NCBI GenBank assembly: GCA_013331625.1
Contig: DUGC01000114.1
Location: 1 to 12,555 of the forward strand
Reading direction: 5' to 3'
Source of the DNA: Candidatus Iainarchaeum sp.
GTDB taxonomy: Archaea > Iainarchaeota > Iainarchaeia > Iainarchaeales > Iainarchaeaceae
Length of the DNA stretch: 12,555 nucleotides
Made by a program: the position numbers and the translations under genes. The notes below the pieces were generated by a model. It had not been told where the DNA came from, did no database searches, and saw only the letters and a list, made by a program, of their open reading frames with translations. How positions within the stretch are numbered: position 1 is the first letter of the stretch; every line of letters starts with the position of its first letter. Below, piece after piece: positions 5,310 through 10,662 of this stretch.

Positions 5310-8300
5310 CTATCCCTTCACATTCCCCACGGGCTTGAGCGAGAATACTTTCTTCGAAATCCCGATCTCATCCATTGTCGCTATCACTTCAGAAATGTCC
5401 TTGTATGCCATCCCCGCTTCCTCGGCAAGGCCTGCATATGATGCGCTTTTCACATAAATCCCTTTTGCTTCCATCTCTGCCTGCAACTGCTCGCCCTTCA
5501 CAAGGCCCTTTGCCTTGGTGCGCGACATCGTCCTTCCCGACCCGTGCATGGTGCTGCCGAAAGTTTCGAGCATAGCTTTTTTTGTCCCCACGCACACATA
5601 GCTCCCTGTCTCCATCGAGCCGCCAACGATTATGGGCTGGCCGGTCTTGCGGAAAAGCGGCGCGAGCTCCTCGTGGTCCGGCCCAAAGCCGCGTGTTGAG
5701 CCTTTGCGGTGCACCACGACTTTTTTCATTTTCCCGCCCACTTTGTGCTTTTCGAGCTTTGCAATGTTATGTGCCACATCATAAATAAGGTTCATCTCCA
5801 TTTCCTCAGCGCTTTTTGCAAACACTTTTTCGAACACCTTGCGGATGTTGTGGGTGATGACCTGCCTGTTTGCAAAAGCGTTGTTTGCGGCGCATGCCAT
5901 CGCGCTATAATACCTCTGCCCTTCCTCGCTGTTGAATGGCGCGCACGCAAGTTCGCGGTCCTTTACCTCAAGATTGTACTTTTCCATCACAGGCCCGAAC
6001 TCCTTGAGGTAATCTGTAGCTACCTGATGGCCTGTCCCGCGCGATCCGCAGTGCACCATAACCATGACCTGCTCATCGCTTTGCACGCCGAATTTTGCGG
6101 CGGTTTCCCTGTCATAAATATCGCTCGCATGTATCACCTGCACTTCAAGGTAGTGGTTCCCCGATCCGAGCGTTCCGAGCTGGTTCATGCTGCGCCCTAT
6201 CGCCCTTTCAGAAACATTTCCGGGATCAGCGCCTTCAATGCACCCCTTCTCCTCAATATGATTTATATCCTCTTTCCATGCGTAGCCATTTTCCATGCAC
6301 CACTTTGCCCCTCCCTGCATAACCTCCAGGGCCTGCTTCCTTTCAAGTTTTAAAGTGCCCTTCACCCCGACCCCTGCAGGGACCTTTTCAAACAAGTTAT
6401 TCACGATCTCGCGGATTTTGGGCCGCACTTCCTTATAGCTCAGGTTTGTTGAAATGAGGCGCATGCCGCAGTTGTGTGATACAATGCAATTTGCAATAAA
6501 GTTATGGCTTTCATCGTTCATTGAGAAATCATAAACGTAGTCAGTGTAGTTATTGACTGTTTCAATTTTTTCAATTATGTCTAAAACAAATTCAGAATTA
6601 CCTATAGATTTGCTAGCCATGAATTCTGTGAATGTCGGAAAATCCTTCCCTATCCTTGAATTTTCTTTTTTTACCCGAAGCTGGCTCAAAACTCTTGCTT
6701 TGCCGAAACCCTGACTATGAGCCTGTTCGATGATGTCTGCTTTTGAAATCTTGTTGTCGTTTAGTAATTTGCATGCACTTTCAACAAAATGATTGAAATT
6801 TTCAATATGGCGCCTTTTTTTCTTAAGATATGCAACTGCAAGCATTGATTTTCTCTTTCTTTCACTGCAATATTCATATCCAATCCTGCTCCAAAGCCTG
6901 ATAAGGTTATCCTCGCCTGATGAGATCCTGATAGCAAATTTGTGTGTTTCCTCGCCTGAAACGTTCACAATGCCTTCCTGTAAATGAATGTTATTCACTT
7001 CCACTCCAAATTCGCCTAAGAGCTTGATGATGTCAATCATAAAGTTCAGGTTACTGCTTTTTAGGCTATTGACCTTGTTTTGGCTGAAATTTGGCTCTAT
7101 GAAGCGGTATTTCTCCCCTTTACGCTGTGCCGGTTTTGTCAACTCAGCTCCAAAAAGCCCCGCAAGATAGAGGCGTTTAATCCATTTTGGCGATTCTTTT
7201 ATCCATTTTGGGACCACGGTTGCTGTTTTTGATTTATTCCCAATTGGCACCCCAAGTGCATGCAATAGAACGGAGAGTGATTGCGAATTAATATAAAATG
7301 CAGTGGATTTTCCGCGAATCTCCCTGATTTTGCCTTTAGGAGATATTATAGTACTATTGCACTGTCTGCTCAGGTAATAATTGGATTCATAACCCAGCTT
7401 CTTAATATCCTGTGCAATATCACGCAGGTCATCTTCTTTGCCGCTAACTTTGGTTGACCATACTTCCTGCTTCCTTTTTTTGCTGTAAAATTTCTCTATA
7501 TTTCCATCGCCTGTCAGGAATCCAGTGAGTTTAGCAAGTATTGCTAGTTGTTTTGAATCATCCCTCAAAGGCAGTAACGAATGTTTCCTGAGTTCATTGA
7601 TAAGTTTTTTCCTATTGCCGACAATCCGATCTATATCTCCCTCATCCAATATCTTCCTGCCTTTTGGGTCTTCATATTCAACCCCTTCAAAGGGATAGGT
7701 CGCAAGGCAGCTGCCTACTGCAAGTTCCCCCGCAGGAATCATGTTTTTTCCGGTGTAGAGGGGGTGATCGGAGGTAAGGATTATTTCATTTCCACATTCG
7801 GTGGTGATTTTTATCACTTTTTCATCCGGTTTTTTTTTCATGAAAAGAAGCGGCACTTCGCTTTTCTTTTTATTCGTAACAATATCAAGGAACATGAGTT
7901 CGTCTTCAAGCGGGCGCTTTTCAAAGTCTTCAATCTTTTTATAATAACCCGCTGAAGTGAGAATTTTAGTGTTTGCGACGAGGCAATTAATGTCAAACCC
8001 GACGATTCCAGGGCTGATTATGCCTTCGGCTGCATCAAATGCCGCGACAGCCCCGACAGGCGCACCGTTAGGGGAGAAATAAACACAACCTTGTTGAGCT
8101 TGCTTTCTTAACCCCAATGCGCGTCAGGCATGGCAAGTGAGTATTTTTGTATCCCTGGCAAGCAGGCCAGGTTGGTGGACTGCTCAAACACCCCGTCATC
8201 CATGTTCGCAAACAGGTTTTCATTGGCATAAATTCTTGCAGGGACATTCATGCCTTCCTTTTCAGTTACAGGAATTTCCCATACGTTTTTTGAAACCTGA

Positions 8301-8320
8301 GTTGCCTTGTATTTTGGCAT
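5310..8320 (-). CDS. rtcB: RNA-splicing ligase RtcB, split by a 41-nt intron and a 505-residue intein
   Basis: RtcB seals 2',3'-cyclic phosphate and 5'-OH RNA ends with GTP and Mn2+, in archaeal tRNA and BHB-intron splicing. ATG at 8320 follows a strong Shine-Dalgarno GGAGGTG with 11 nt spacing. The first 70 codons (MPKYKATQVSKNVWEIPVTE to MPDAHWG) end at an in-frame TAA (8110-8108). The conserved sequence resumes in another frame at PVGAVAAFDAAEG. Removing 8109-8069 gives HWGYGAPVGAVAAFD, as the family requires. After removal of the intein (7985-6471) the protein is 484 residues, close to the 481 I recall for Pyrococcus RtcB. Expected active-site residues are present: DIN-C (Cys99; Cys98 in Pyrococcus), GSGNH, VHCGSRGTGH, YDVAHN, and the guanylated His in MHGSGR. 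The stop is TAG. Upstream is a TATA box at 8364-8372. Archease lies 1.6 kb away. Confidence 0.93.
6471..7985 (-). mobile_element. RtcB intein with LAGLIDADG homing endonuclease domain
   Basis: 505 residues inserted between GFDIN and the catalytic Cys of RtcB. Intein residue 1 is Cys (CLVANTKILTSAGYYKKIED). The block B motif TSDH is at about 71-74. LAGLIDADG motifs are LTGFLTGDG (about 153-161) and YLAGLFGAE (about 273-281). Block F is DYVYDFSMNDESHNFIAN and the C-terminal block is CIVSHN, followed by the +1 Cys of RtcB at 6470-6468. All residues needed for splicing (Cys1, block B His, penultimate His, terminal Asn, +1 Cys) are present. The DIN-C site is a known intein site in Pyrococcus RtcB. 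Until the intein leaves, the metal-binding Cys is not in its native setting, so RtcB activity needs protein splicing. Base composition is more AT-rich than the flanking rtcB, as usual for a mobile insert. Each endonuclease motif keeps an acidic residue, so it may still be active. Confidence 0.93.
8055..8125 (-). other. Bulge-helix-bulge splicing element spanning the rtcB exon-intron borders
   Basis: This is the full structured stretch: exon 1 strand 8125-8110, intron 8109-8069, exon 2 strand 8068-8055. Beyond the 7-bp outer helix, GAC (8125-8123) can also pair with GUC (8057-8055) across a 2-nt bulge. Both exonic strands encode conserved RtcB residues (PDAHWG and GAPVG), so the pairing has to fit within the protein code. 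Substrate for the archaeal tRNA splicing endonuclease is the predicted role. Confidence 0.7.
8069..8109 (-). other. Predicted 41-nt BHB intron in rtcB
   Basis: The insertion breaks the reading frame (41 nt; TAA at 8110-8108). With removal after 8110 and before 8068 the codons read CAT TGG GGT TAC GGT GCG CCT, giving H-W-G-Y-G-A-P. The flanks fold as follows. Outer helix: exon GCGCAUU (8122-8116) with exon GGUGCGC (8066-8060), including two G.U pairs. Central 4-bp helix: exon GGGG (8115-8112) with intron CCCC (8074-8071). Inner helix: AGAAA (8108-8104) with UUUCU (8079-8075). The 5' bulge UUA has 3 nt; the 3' bulge UAAC has 4 nt, so the motif is slightly relaxed. The standard cut after the second nucleotide of each bulge (UU^A and UA^AC) gives precisely the frame-restoring join. 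A CAAC-AAG-GUUG hairpin can cap the intron. Confidence 0.8.
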
Positions 8321-8372: not shown

Positions 8373-8393
8373 GCTCTCAGAAGGATTTTTTCC

Positions 8394-9198
8394 GTGGAAA
8401 CCATTAAAACCATAAGTGCCGACCTTGCCGCAGTGCATGCTTACCTGTGTGCTGATGGCTAGGTAATGGTTGGAAAACCGGGGGGTAAATATTCTTGCTA
8501 TCGCATTGGGCTTAGGAACACTGAACCTGTTTTGCTTGAAGATTTCTGCCAAAAATTCAATTTTGTTTTTGGTTTACGCCCCCATATATCCAAAGATATT
8601 GATCGCGCTTATATCGGGGATAAGAGCATCCATCAGTTCCTCACTAGCACATTCGGTTCCTTTTATTCTCATTATTGGTCATTTCCGGAAACAATTTTCA
8701 GCAGTAAGGAATTGAAGGCAGCTTGGCTCCGTGCTGTGTTTGACTGTGAAGGCTGGGTGTATTGCAAAAATGGTAGTGACAGGCATATTGGAATAGGGAT
8801 GGTAAATCTAAACGGAATATTCAAAATTCAATCACTTCTGGGGGCGGGTCGTTTTGCATCCGAAGAAAAAGGCAAAGTTAGCAGAAACACTCAGGCCCTT
8901 TGTTGAGCATGAATGGAAACTCCCCTGTTCAGGAACTGAACGGGCGGCATTTATCCTTTCCAAGCTGGGAGGGAAAAGGCATAAGCTTGGAAAGCGGAGA
9001 TTAAGGGTGTGCTCATGCATTCGCGCAAATTTGGAAAGATTGCAATTGGAGCTGAAGCGATACTATGATGTTAATGCCCTTGTTTCAGGTAAAGTGAAAA
9101 ACAGCAGAGGGGATTCATATTTTGAATTGTCTATAAACAAACTGGCAGATGTTGAAAAAATAAGAATGCATAGGCTAAAATATTCCTTAAACTATTCT
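8394..9198 (+). pseudogene. Decayed free-standing LAGLIDADG homing endonuclease
   Basis: The reading from GTG 8394 gives ISADLAAVHAYLCADG (first LAGLIDADG helix) and then TAG at 8460-8462, where homologues have ADGYV. The same frame continues VMVGKPGGKYSCYRIGLRNT and LRAVFDCEGWVYCKNG (second motif) to about 8840. It then needs a frame change to reach LHPKKKAKLAETLRPFVEHE (from 8854). About 40 residues normally found between the two are missing, which points to a deletion plus frameshift. The tail RVCSCIRANLERLQLELKRY and SYFELSINKLADVEKI has no stop and runs into the lipoprotein gene. TAG also ends rtcB and the toxin gene here, so it is best read as a real stop. The family is recognised from memory. 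It is probably a former invader beside the intron- and intein-bearing rtcB; its original target is unknown. Confidence 0.8.
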
Positions 9199-9929: not shown

Positions 9930-10349
9930 TCAGATGTCGGCAACCACGGTTGCGCTCCACTTTCCCTTCCCGCTTTTGATTTCAAACATATGCATCGTGA
10001 TCGCCTTCACATCATTGAGAAGGTTCTCCCTGCCGATATTTCCAAGGGTATCCCCTGCACATTCAGCACTCAATTTCCCGCCGTTGATTTTTATTTTAAA
10101 TTTTTTGAAGAGCAGGCCATCAACATCTTTTATGTAGACAAGTTCCTCGAGGATGCTGTATAGCAGCCCCTTGTCATCCTTTCCCTCAACTGAAATTTTC
10201 CTCTTCTGTGTTGTGCCGATCTTTTCAGGGCTGGCCATCATGGAAGTGAGCGCGCGGCAGCAGTTCACAAACACTTCCTCCCGCGTTTTTCCATATGCAC
10301 GGAAAGCTATATCGGATATCGCGACATCTGGAAGGAACTCAAATTGCAT
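9930..10349 (-). CDS. Archease, RtcB activator
   Basis: 139 residues from ATG 10349: MQFEFLPDVAISDIAFRAYG, then KTREEVFVNCCRALTSMM, TLGNIGRENLLNDVKAITMH and a final GKGKWSATVVADI. Archease is a small metal-binding protein that speeds guanylation and turnover of RtcB. The usual 'HTADI' near the N terminus reads DVAISDI here, keeping the acidic residues but replacing the His; I believe such variants exist in other archaea and bacteria. The frame is open further upstream to 10475, but that part shows no family similarity and would overlap the toxin gene. The start at 10349 has a TATA-like box at 10373-10380, about 27 nt before it, which fits a leaderless transcript separate from the toxin-antitoxin operon. 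It is near rtcB but not in one operon with it, since plus-strand genes lie between. Confidence 0.9.
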   Translation of the reverse strand: MQFEFLPDVAISDIAFRAYGKTREEVFVNCCRALTSMMASPEKIGTTQKRKISVEGKDDKGLLYSILEELVYIKDVDGLLFKKFKIKINGGKLSAECAGDTLGNIGRENLLNDVKAITMHMFEIKSGKGKWSATVVADI

Positions 10350-10372
10350 AAGAAGAAGGGTGGGTAAAACGG

Positions 10373-10380
10373 TTTTAAAT
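10373..10380 (-). promoter_or_regulatory. TATA box of archease
   Basis: The minus strand reads ATTTAAAA, centred about 27 nt before the archease ATG at 10349, with a pyrimidine-rich stretch and no Shine-Dalgarno sequence between. It lies just past the toxin stop codon. Confidence 0.5.
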
Positions 10381-10392
10381 GGGAGTGGGCAG

Positions 10393-10662
10393 CTATTGGT
10401 ACACATTATCGTGGTGGTCCATGTCCAGCAGCCGTACTGTTTTGCTCTCTTCAATAATATCATATACGGGCACAAAGTTCTGAAGTATATGTACCCTCCG
10501 CTTGTTGTTCATTGGTGCATGCAAGGGCTTGAATCTGTAGGGGTCCTCCAGTATCTGGCACAGCTTGTTTTCCACAACCTTTCTTAACTGTGGATTTTTT
10601 GCGCCAGCCTTCTCCAACTTCTTTTTGCAGGCCTTCTCGACCAGCAGCAAATACGGCAACAT
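10393..10662 (-). CDS. RelE/ParE-superfamily toxin
   Basis: 89 residues from ATG 10662. Helical N terminus (KACKKKLEKAGAKNPQLRKV), then FKPLHAPMNNKRRVHI, FVPVYDIIEESKTVRLLDMD and the ending HHDNVYQ, a layout typical of archaeal RelE-like mRNA-interferase toxins ('F-K-P-L-r-g-p-m-k-g-k-R-R-V-H-i', 'VRLLDFDHHDNVY'). The basic KRR stretch and the terminal HHDxVY are where RelE-family proteins carry residues for RNA binding and cleavage; the exact catalytic set was not checked against a structure. The gene starts 1 nt after the antitoxin stop (TGA-A-ATG), so the two are probably translated together. The stop is TAG. Confidence 0.85.
   Translation of the reverse strand: MLPYLLLVEKACKKKLEKAGAKNPQLRKVVENKLCQILEDPYRFKPLHAPMNNKRRVHILQNFVPVYDIIEESKTVRLLDMDHHDNVYQ

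Follow-up and report, generated by a model that had tools for sequence, protein, structure and literature searches.

A predicted bulge-helix-bulge intron in the archaeal rtcB gene and similar candidate introns in rtcB of other archaea

The closest known relative of the interruption described here is the intron in cbf5 pre-mRNA of the Desulfurococcales and Sulfolobales, on which Watanabe (2002) and Yoshinari (2006) reportedly worked. In eukaryotes, a short, frame-changing mRNA intron is removed from XBP1 and HAC1 by tRNA-type splicing, with metazoan XBP1 being joined by RTCB; these systems differ from the one proposed here in that IRE1 makes the cuts and the splicing is controlled by stress. 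The introns of archaeal tRNAs have the same bulge-helix-bulge (BHB) geometry as the rtcB insert and presumably share its EndA/RtcB pathway, and four of the host's own tRNAs (tRNA-Asp, -Ala, -Thr, and -Leu) have it. The rtcB insert differs from them in lying in an mRNA and in its 3′ bulge of 4 nt. According to passages of Yokobori 2009 (PMC2738675), the cbf5 introns are 16–44 bp long, disrupt a catalytic codon, are patchy in their presence, and often have relaxed BHB motifs, and cbf5 was at that time the only archaeal gene with confirmed mRNA splicing, others being predicted. Like those of cbf5, the candidate introns of rtcB are short, BHB-bounded, patchy in occurrence, and in a gene for an RNA-processing enzyme, and a cut between the second and third bulge bases fits their borders. 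Unlike them, they are in another gene of other archaea, occupy at least ten positions at two places with up to two inserts per gene, and interrupt the gene for the pathway's presumed ligase. In addition, cbf5 splicing has been tied to a heteromeric EndA, whereas one alpha-like EndA gene was found in the genome studied here. A search of open-access papers, covering part of the literature, found no report of an intron in rtcB, and an earlier description is possible.

We analyzed a 12,555-nt stretch of DNA (the window) from Candidatus Iainarchaeum sp., contig DUGC01000114.1 of assembly GCA_013331625.1. The rtcB gene is on the minus strand at 8320-5310 and is interrupted by a 41-nt insert at 8109-8069. 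Read unspliced from the ATG at 8320, it codes for a 70-aa peptide (cluster P0001) that ends in MPDAHWG followed by a TAA, while the conserved reading continues in another frame. The earlier note had described this stop and change of frame, and on re-reading the sequence both are where it had put them. Removing the 41 nt, which is not a multiple of three, brings back the HWGYG motif, as had been claimed, and gives a single frame of 989 residues plus a stop codon. Of the 989 residues, 484 are RtcB and the other 505 form an intein that separates FDIN from CGMR, and residues 8-484 of Pyrococcus horikoshii RtcB (1uc2) match the RtcB part nearly end to end (E 2.5e-162). Exon 1 (8110-8320, minus strand) runs from the ATG to HWG and the first base of the Tyr codon, and exon 2 (5310-8068, minus strand) contains the intein at the FDIN-C boundary (6471-7985, minus strand; Intein_splicing PF14890, E 2.9e-16) and ends with the stop codon at 5312-5310. 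Past the insert, the frame runs on undisturbed for over 900 codons. The word across the spliced junction, GCATTGGGGTTACGGTGCGCC, is absent from the DNA of the window's rtcB. The gene combines predicted splicing at the RNA level with predicted splicing at the protein level. About 1.6 kb upstream, on the same strand, is the gene for Archease, the partner protein of RtcB (9930-10475; PF01951, E 1e-33). Just upstream of rtcB and divergent from it is a free-standing LAGLIDADG-like frame (8391-8903, plus strand) that is split by a TAG; the part downstream of the TAG (8466-8903) accounts for its weak Pfam match (LAGLIDADG_3, E 0.0017, under Pfam's cut-off).

The minimum-energy fold of the insert region is a BHB, identical to the one drawn in the earlier note. 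All of its elements are read on the minus strand. An outer helix of 7 bp, two of them G.U, pairs GCGCAUU (8116-8122) with GGUGCGC (8060-8066). It is followed by a 4-bp central helix of GGGG (8112-8115) and CCCC (8071-8074), which spans both exon-intron borders, and by a 5-bp inner helix of AGAAA (8104-8108) and UUUCU (8075-8079). Whereas a canonical BHB has 3-nt bulges on both sides, here the 5′ bulge is UUA (3 nt, 8109-8111) and the 3′ bulge UAAC (4 nt, 8067-8070). Relaxed BHBs also occur in this family of introns. Under the rule that EndA cuts each bulge between its second and third bases, the predicted cuts are 8110/8109 (UU^A) and 8069/8068 (UA^AC), and they join U to AC, giving the Tyr codon of HWGYG and restoring the frame. 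Within 15 nt of each border, 37 joins have a full central helix, and by structure this one scores highest among them. Protein conservation and the RNA fold agree on one join, which is what had been proposed. Removal of 8109-8069 or of 8108-8068 leaves an identical spliced product; between these two joins, one base apart, the exact bond is set by the BHB rule alone. The total folding energy differs only modestly from that of shuffled sequence (z −1.76) and is equaled or bettered by 9 of 200 shuffles. A more specific test gave a stronger result: with the exons fixed and the intron dinucleotide-shuffled over 1000 rounds, the pairing observed at frame-restoring joins was reached in 0.2% of shuffles. 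The fold, the restored frame, these shuffles, and an insert at the same site in a relative support the candidate intron at 8069-8109. Two other kinds of insert were rejected. A group I or group II self-splicing intron is disfavored as an Rfam search of the window had no match at the gathering score and a ribozyme intron needs more than 41 nt. The insert is also not an intein, being 41 nt long and having a stop; the separate 505-aa insert at FDIN-C does match Intein_splicing.

The host genome (1.43 Mb in 123 contigs, 86.75% complete) encodes both an EndA and a ligase. A single RtcB gene was found in it, as was a single EndA match (contig C123, 7382-7642), in a 172-aa ORF that looks like the alpha type; at this completeness a second, unseen EndA subunit is possible. 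Relaxed BHBs, according to a review (PMC6379350), are removed efficiently only by (αβ)2 and ε2 EndA enzymes. Given that limit, the 4-nt bulge together with a single alpha-like EndA gene is a point against splicing of the rtcB insert. The genome has 29 tRNA matches, and ARAGORN called introns in seven tRNA genes. Those in tRNA-Asp, -Ala, -Thr, and -Leu are canonical BHBs with a full central helix and those in tRNA-Ile and -Ser have three of the four central pairs. The 69-nt "intron" called in tRNA-Gly (G000 contig C52, L145) was rejected, being a tandem repeat of tRNA sequence and not a BHB intron. A search of the genome for PF09414 RNA ligases gave none above the family cut-off. It does contain a homologue of 2′-5′ RNA ligase, which leaves room for a joining enzyme other than RtcB.

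To find rtcB in relatives, 53 genomes of the same order were searched with the spliced protein and 48 had a match. The HWGYG site is uninterrupted in all 34 readable rtcB loci, one of them from the window's own genus. The other loci comprised C-terminal fragments, pieces of the window itself, EndA, and the locus of G045. In G045, a genome from another family of the order, the frame ends at this same place, and an insert, also of 41 nt, lies at the identical nucleotide. The two inserts look unrelated and agree at 20 of 41 positions. The inner helix is AACUC/GGGUU in G045 versus AGAAA/UUUCU in the window, the central helix is GGGG/CCUC versus GGGG/CCCC, and the bulges are the same. Its truncated peptide is identical to P0009, a protein publicly labeled as Candidatus Diapherotrites archaeon. 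An exact-pattern scan of 75 genomes of the order found only the window and G045. The earlier note had suggested comparing rtcB of close relatives, and the outcome, an intron absent from 34 loci and present with compensatory inner-helix changes at the same nucleotide in one, supports its reading of the insert as a BHB intron.

The recurrence of such inserts in other archaea goes beyond that note. With the 70-aa truncated peptide as query, and a length filter that admits short proteins only, 32 short homologues were found. Nine end exactly at HWG (P0001, P0003-P0009, and P0030), P0001 being the window's own cluster, which is on 13 contigs. Others carry different inserts or break off close to the His of this motif, within a few residues. 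Two metagenome proteins, P0018 and P0022, carry a stop-free, in-frame insert of 11 residues between the His and Trp of HWGYG; this insert could be translated or spliced, and retained inserts are conceivable there. L052, a locus labeled Candidatus Woesearchaeota, has a 31-nt insert with a BHB at CAUUG^GGG, three bases before the Tyr codon region. Of 103 genomes searched in the order of L052, 92 had a match and at least 21 of these carry such inserts; in a phylum-wide draw of 371 genomes, 335 had a match and at least 31 carry them. Splice-aware alignment of 52 loci to intact RtcB proteins gave 61 candidate introns in 44 loci, with one locus per genome among the 44 kept. L181, L191, and L172 were dropped as resembling inteins or alignment artifacts, as was a second gap of L094; L184 repeats L167, and L089, L090, L096, and L097 gave no intron. 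Four loci (L074-L077) were read outside the alignment, of which L074-L076 have no intron at either of the two places defined below and L077 has an intein. Seventeen genes have two candidate introns. The 61 introns are 12–41 nt long, represent 59 distinct sequences, and divide by three with remainder classes of 21, 19, and 21. The shortest, an identical 12-nt insert in L071, L079, and L080, is in the GGI-GFD region and has an in-frame stop and a 4-bp helix with no inner stem. These inserts may be the smallest form of the rtcB mini-introns. In size they equal the putative 12-bp introns reported for an archaeal virus (Peng et al., cited in PMC2738675). In one further genome, G433, two rtcB-like matches lie about 1 kb apart on contig C83, the second with a stop.

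The candidate introns are found at two places in the gene, three positions at the one and seven at the other. At place A (PDxHxGYG), eight are directly after the His codon, three are 2 nt later, and 27 are 7 nt later, the class of the window. At place B they lie 17, 11, 9, 8, 6, 4, and 2 nt before the FDIN-C boundary (n = 3, 9, 1, 1, 6, 2, and 1, respectively). Codons are interrupted in all three phases (offsets 0, 2, and 7 at A and −2 to −17 at B). The search covered the first 102 residues of RtcB, and rare later introns could be missed. In a whole-gene alignment of 24 loci, two (L059 and L066) had gaps beyond residue 110, neither with a BHB, and these were not counted. Both places double as intein sites: L077 (G143) and L172 (G397) have inteins at GYGF-C, and the window and L170 have them at FDIN-C. 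The two conserved motifs are shared by RtcB inteins and the introns, and the window's gene has both kinds, though inteins leave the protein and not the RNA. L072 and L094 have a place-B intron and an intein at FDIN-C in the same gene, which disfavors a simple exclusion of introns by inteins. A tree of 95 RtcB proteins shows introns in scattered positions, the label "none" requiring 28 changes, at least 17 of them forced by well-supported branches. Shuffled labels give a mean of 29.9, and the clustering is no greater than that. The tree was made with FastTree from rows that include hand-picked intronless proteins, 12 short rows, and an L066 row with eight stops from false downstream gaps, and was used for scatter only.

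We also examined how well the candidate introns fit the BHB as a group. All four central pairs form at the protein-consistent join in 53 of 61 introns, in 44 this join is the best of all by structure alone, and in 55 it has p ≤ 0.05 against shuffled introns. The six with p > 0.05 are L064, L092, L093, and the three 12-nt inserts. In eight introns at least one central pair is missing; L167 is the one case at place B, and the other seven are at place A, with six to seven of them being of the CAY^ type. For eight place-B introns the join was first set with the reference Phe; Tyr, one conservative change, was allowed after the data had been seen and gives a BHB-consistent join. Under the strict rule, the central helix is complete in 45 of 62, the join is top-ranked in 38 of 62, and p ≤ 0.05 holds in 47 of 62. 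In the 57 introns that are 23 nt or longer, inner pairs one to five are formed in 55, 56, 57, 55, and 45 cases, respectively, compared with shuffled means of 24.7, 26.1, 26.7, 23.9, and 25.2 and a maximum of 38 in 2000 shuffles, the counts being somewhat inflated by relatedness and by the choice of the best equivalent join. Each inner pair position has five or six kinds of standard pair. Both in these 57 introns and between G045 and the window, the predicted structure is kept while the sequence changes. The outer helix, which is made of exon sequence, is mostly short, a third outer pair forming in 4 of 57. Read unspliced, a stop overlaps the intron in 58 of the 61, including all 21 whose length is a multiple of three; in the other three the frame is shifted and a stop follows within 15 codons. 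Stop-free inserts would be under-counted here, the loci having been chosen by their broken frames.

The 41-nt insert is very probably an archaeal BHB intron in rtcB mRNA that is cut by EndA and most likely joined by RtcB with Archease. One way for the RNA to stay uncut would be for ribosomes to bypass or frameshift across the insert, as in the hop of T4 gene 60. A stop codon and a hairpin directly after the take-off Gly codon are a trait of known bypass elements and the rtcB insert has both right after a Gly codon. However, the Tyr codon of HWGYG arises only by joining U and AC, and landing on GGU at 8066-8064 would lose the Tyr and one Gly. The triplet before that GGU is AAC and not a Gly codon, and no matching take-off and landing codons that restore the protein were found in the window. 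Across the candidate introns codons are broken in all three phases, and it is the BHB geometry that is conserved rather than any match between take-off and landing codons; we consider bypass highly improbable. A separate start offers another route with no RNA splicing, in which RtcB would be made as two pieces, the 70-aa N-terminal peptide and a large piece from a TTG-started frame of 935 aa that begins within the intron. This piece would lack the Tyr, with the motif altered, and the inserts preserve base-paired helices but neither a translated sequence nor a start codon, leaving the two-piece reading the least credible of all.

The fragmentation of the assembly, with its 123 contigs and 86.75% completeness, might suggest a pseudogene or a sequencing or assembly error. 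Against this, the cluster of the truncated peptide is on 13 contigs and an independent genome (G045) has a different insert at the same nucleotide. The gene is also the sole RtcB found in the genome, its remaining frame is intact for more than 900 codons, and the introns of at least six tRNA genes call for a ligase, all of which makes a dead or misread gene very unlikely. It is somewhat less improbable, but still unlikely, that the EndA cut serves to destroy or switch off rtcB mRNA as regulatory processing, with splicing being rare or conditional. XBP1 and HAC1 are a precedent for regulated tRNA-type mRNA splicing. A negative regulatory role has also been proposed for the cbf5 intron (PMC2738675). 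A single-copy enzyme is still required for tRNA splicing, however, and hence some splicing of rtcB is needed, so that regulatory cutting is a refinement of the BHB intron reading and not an alternative to it.

If the insert is a BHB intron, the genome holds what its removal would need: the genes for EndA, RtcB, and Archease are present alongside intron-bearing tRNA genes. From the gene and its fold we infer transcription, cleavage, ligation by RtcB, and the fate of the intron. The rtcB pre-mRNA would fold as a BHB and EndA would cut it at the two bulges, at 8110/8109 and 8069/8068. Joining of the exons, for which RtcB with Archease is the most likely agent, would then yield RtcB with HWGYG. 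Unspliced mRNA would yield only the 70-aa fragment, which lacks the FDINC motif with Asp95 and Cys98 (P. horikoshii numbering), residues we take to be metal ligands. In that case RtcB could be produced only with the help of EndA and, should RtcB itself do the joining, pre-existing RtcB would be required as well to mature rtcB mRNA. The overlap with intein sites could reflect repair scars, homing immunity, or a shared preference for conserved codons. We tentatively suggest a wider possibility, for which the odds are rather against us, that in DPANN archaea rtcB recurrently gains and loses mini-introns that need RtcB for their joining and that lie at, or shield, the two intein homing sites. As part of that same tentative reading, the introns might be repair scars of homing-endonuclease cuts, surviving only where they fold as a BHB and can be spliced, or might confer homing immunity by interrupting the endonuclease target.

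In practice, genomes with such introns get a split or truncated rtcB annotation, as with P0009, whose 70 aa are annotated as an RtcB family protein. Dozens of cases at two places of a second gene, and in different archaea, would show that tRNA-type mRNA splicing is recurrent. The rtcB series would provide comparative material for the gain and loss of introns and the intein-site overlap makes their origin testable. As the gene codes for the presumed ligase of its own pathway, it also presents a testable self-dependence, no RtcB mRNA without RtcB. Were the wider reading of recurrent mini-introns true, RtcB must be inherited as a protein for rtcB to be read.
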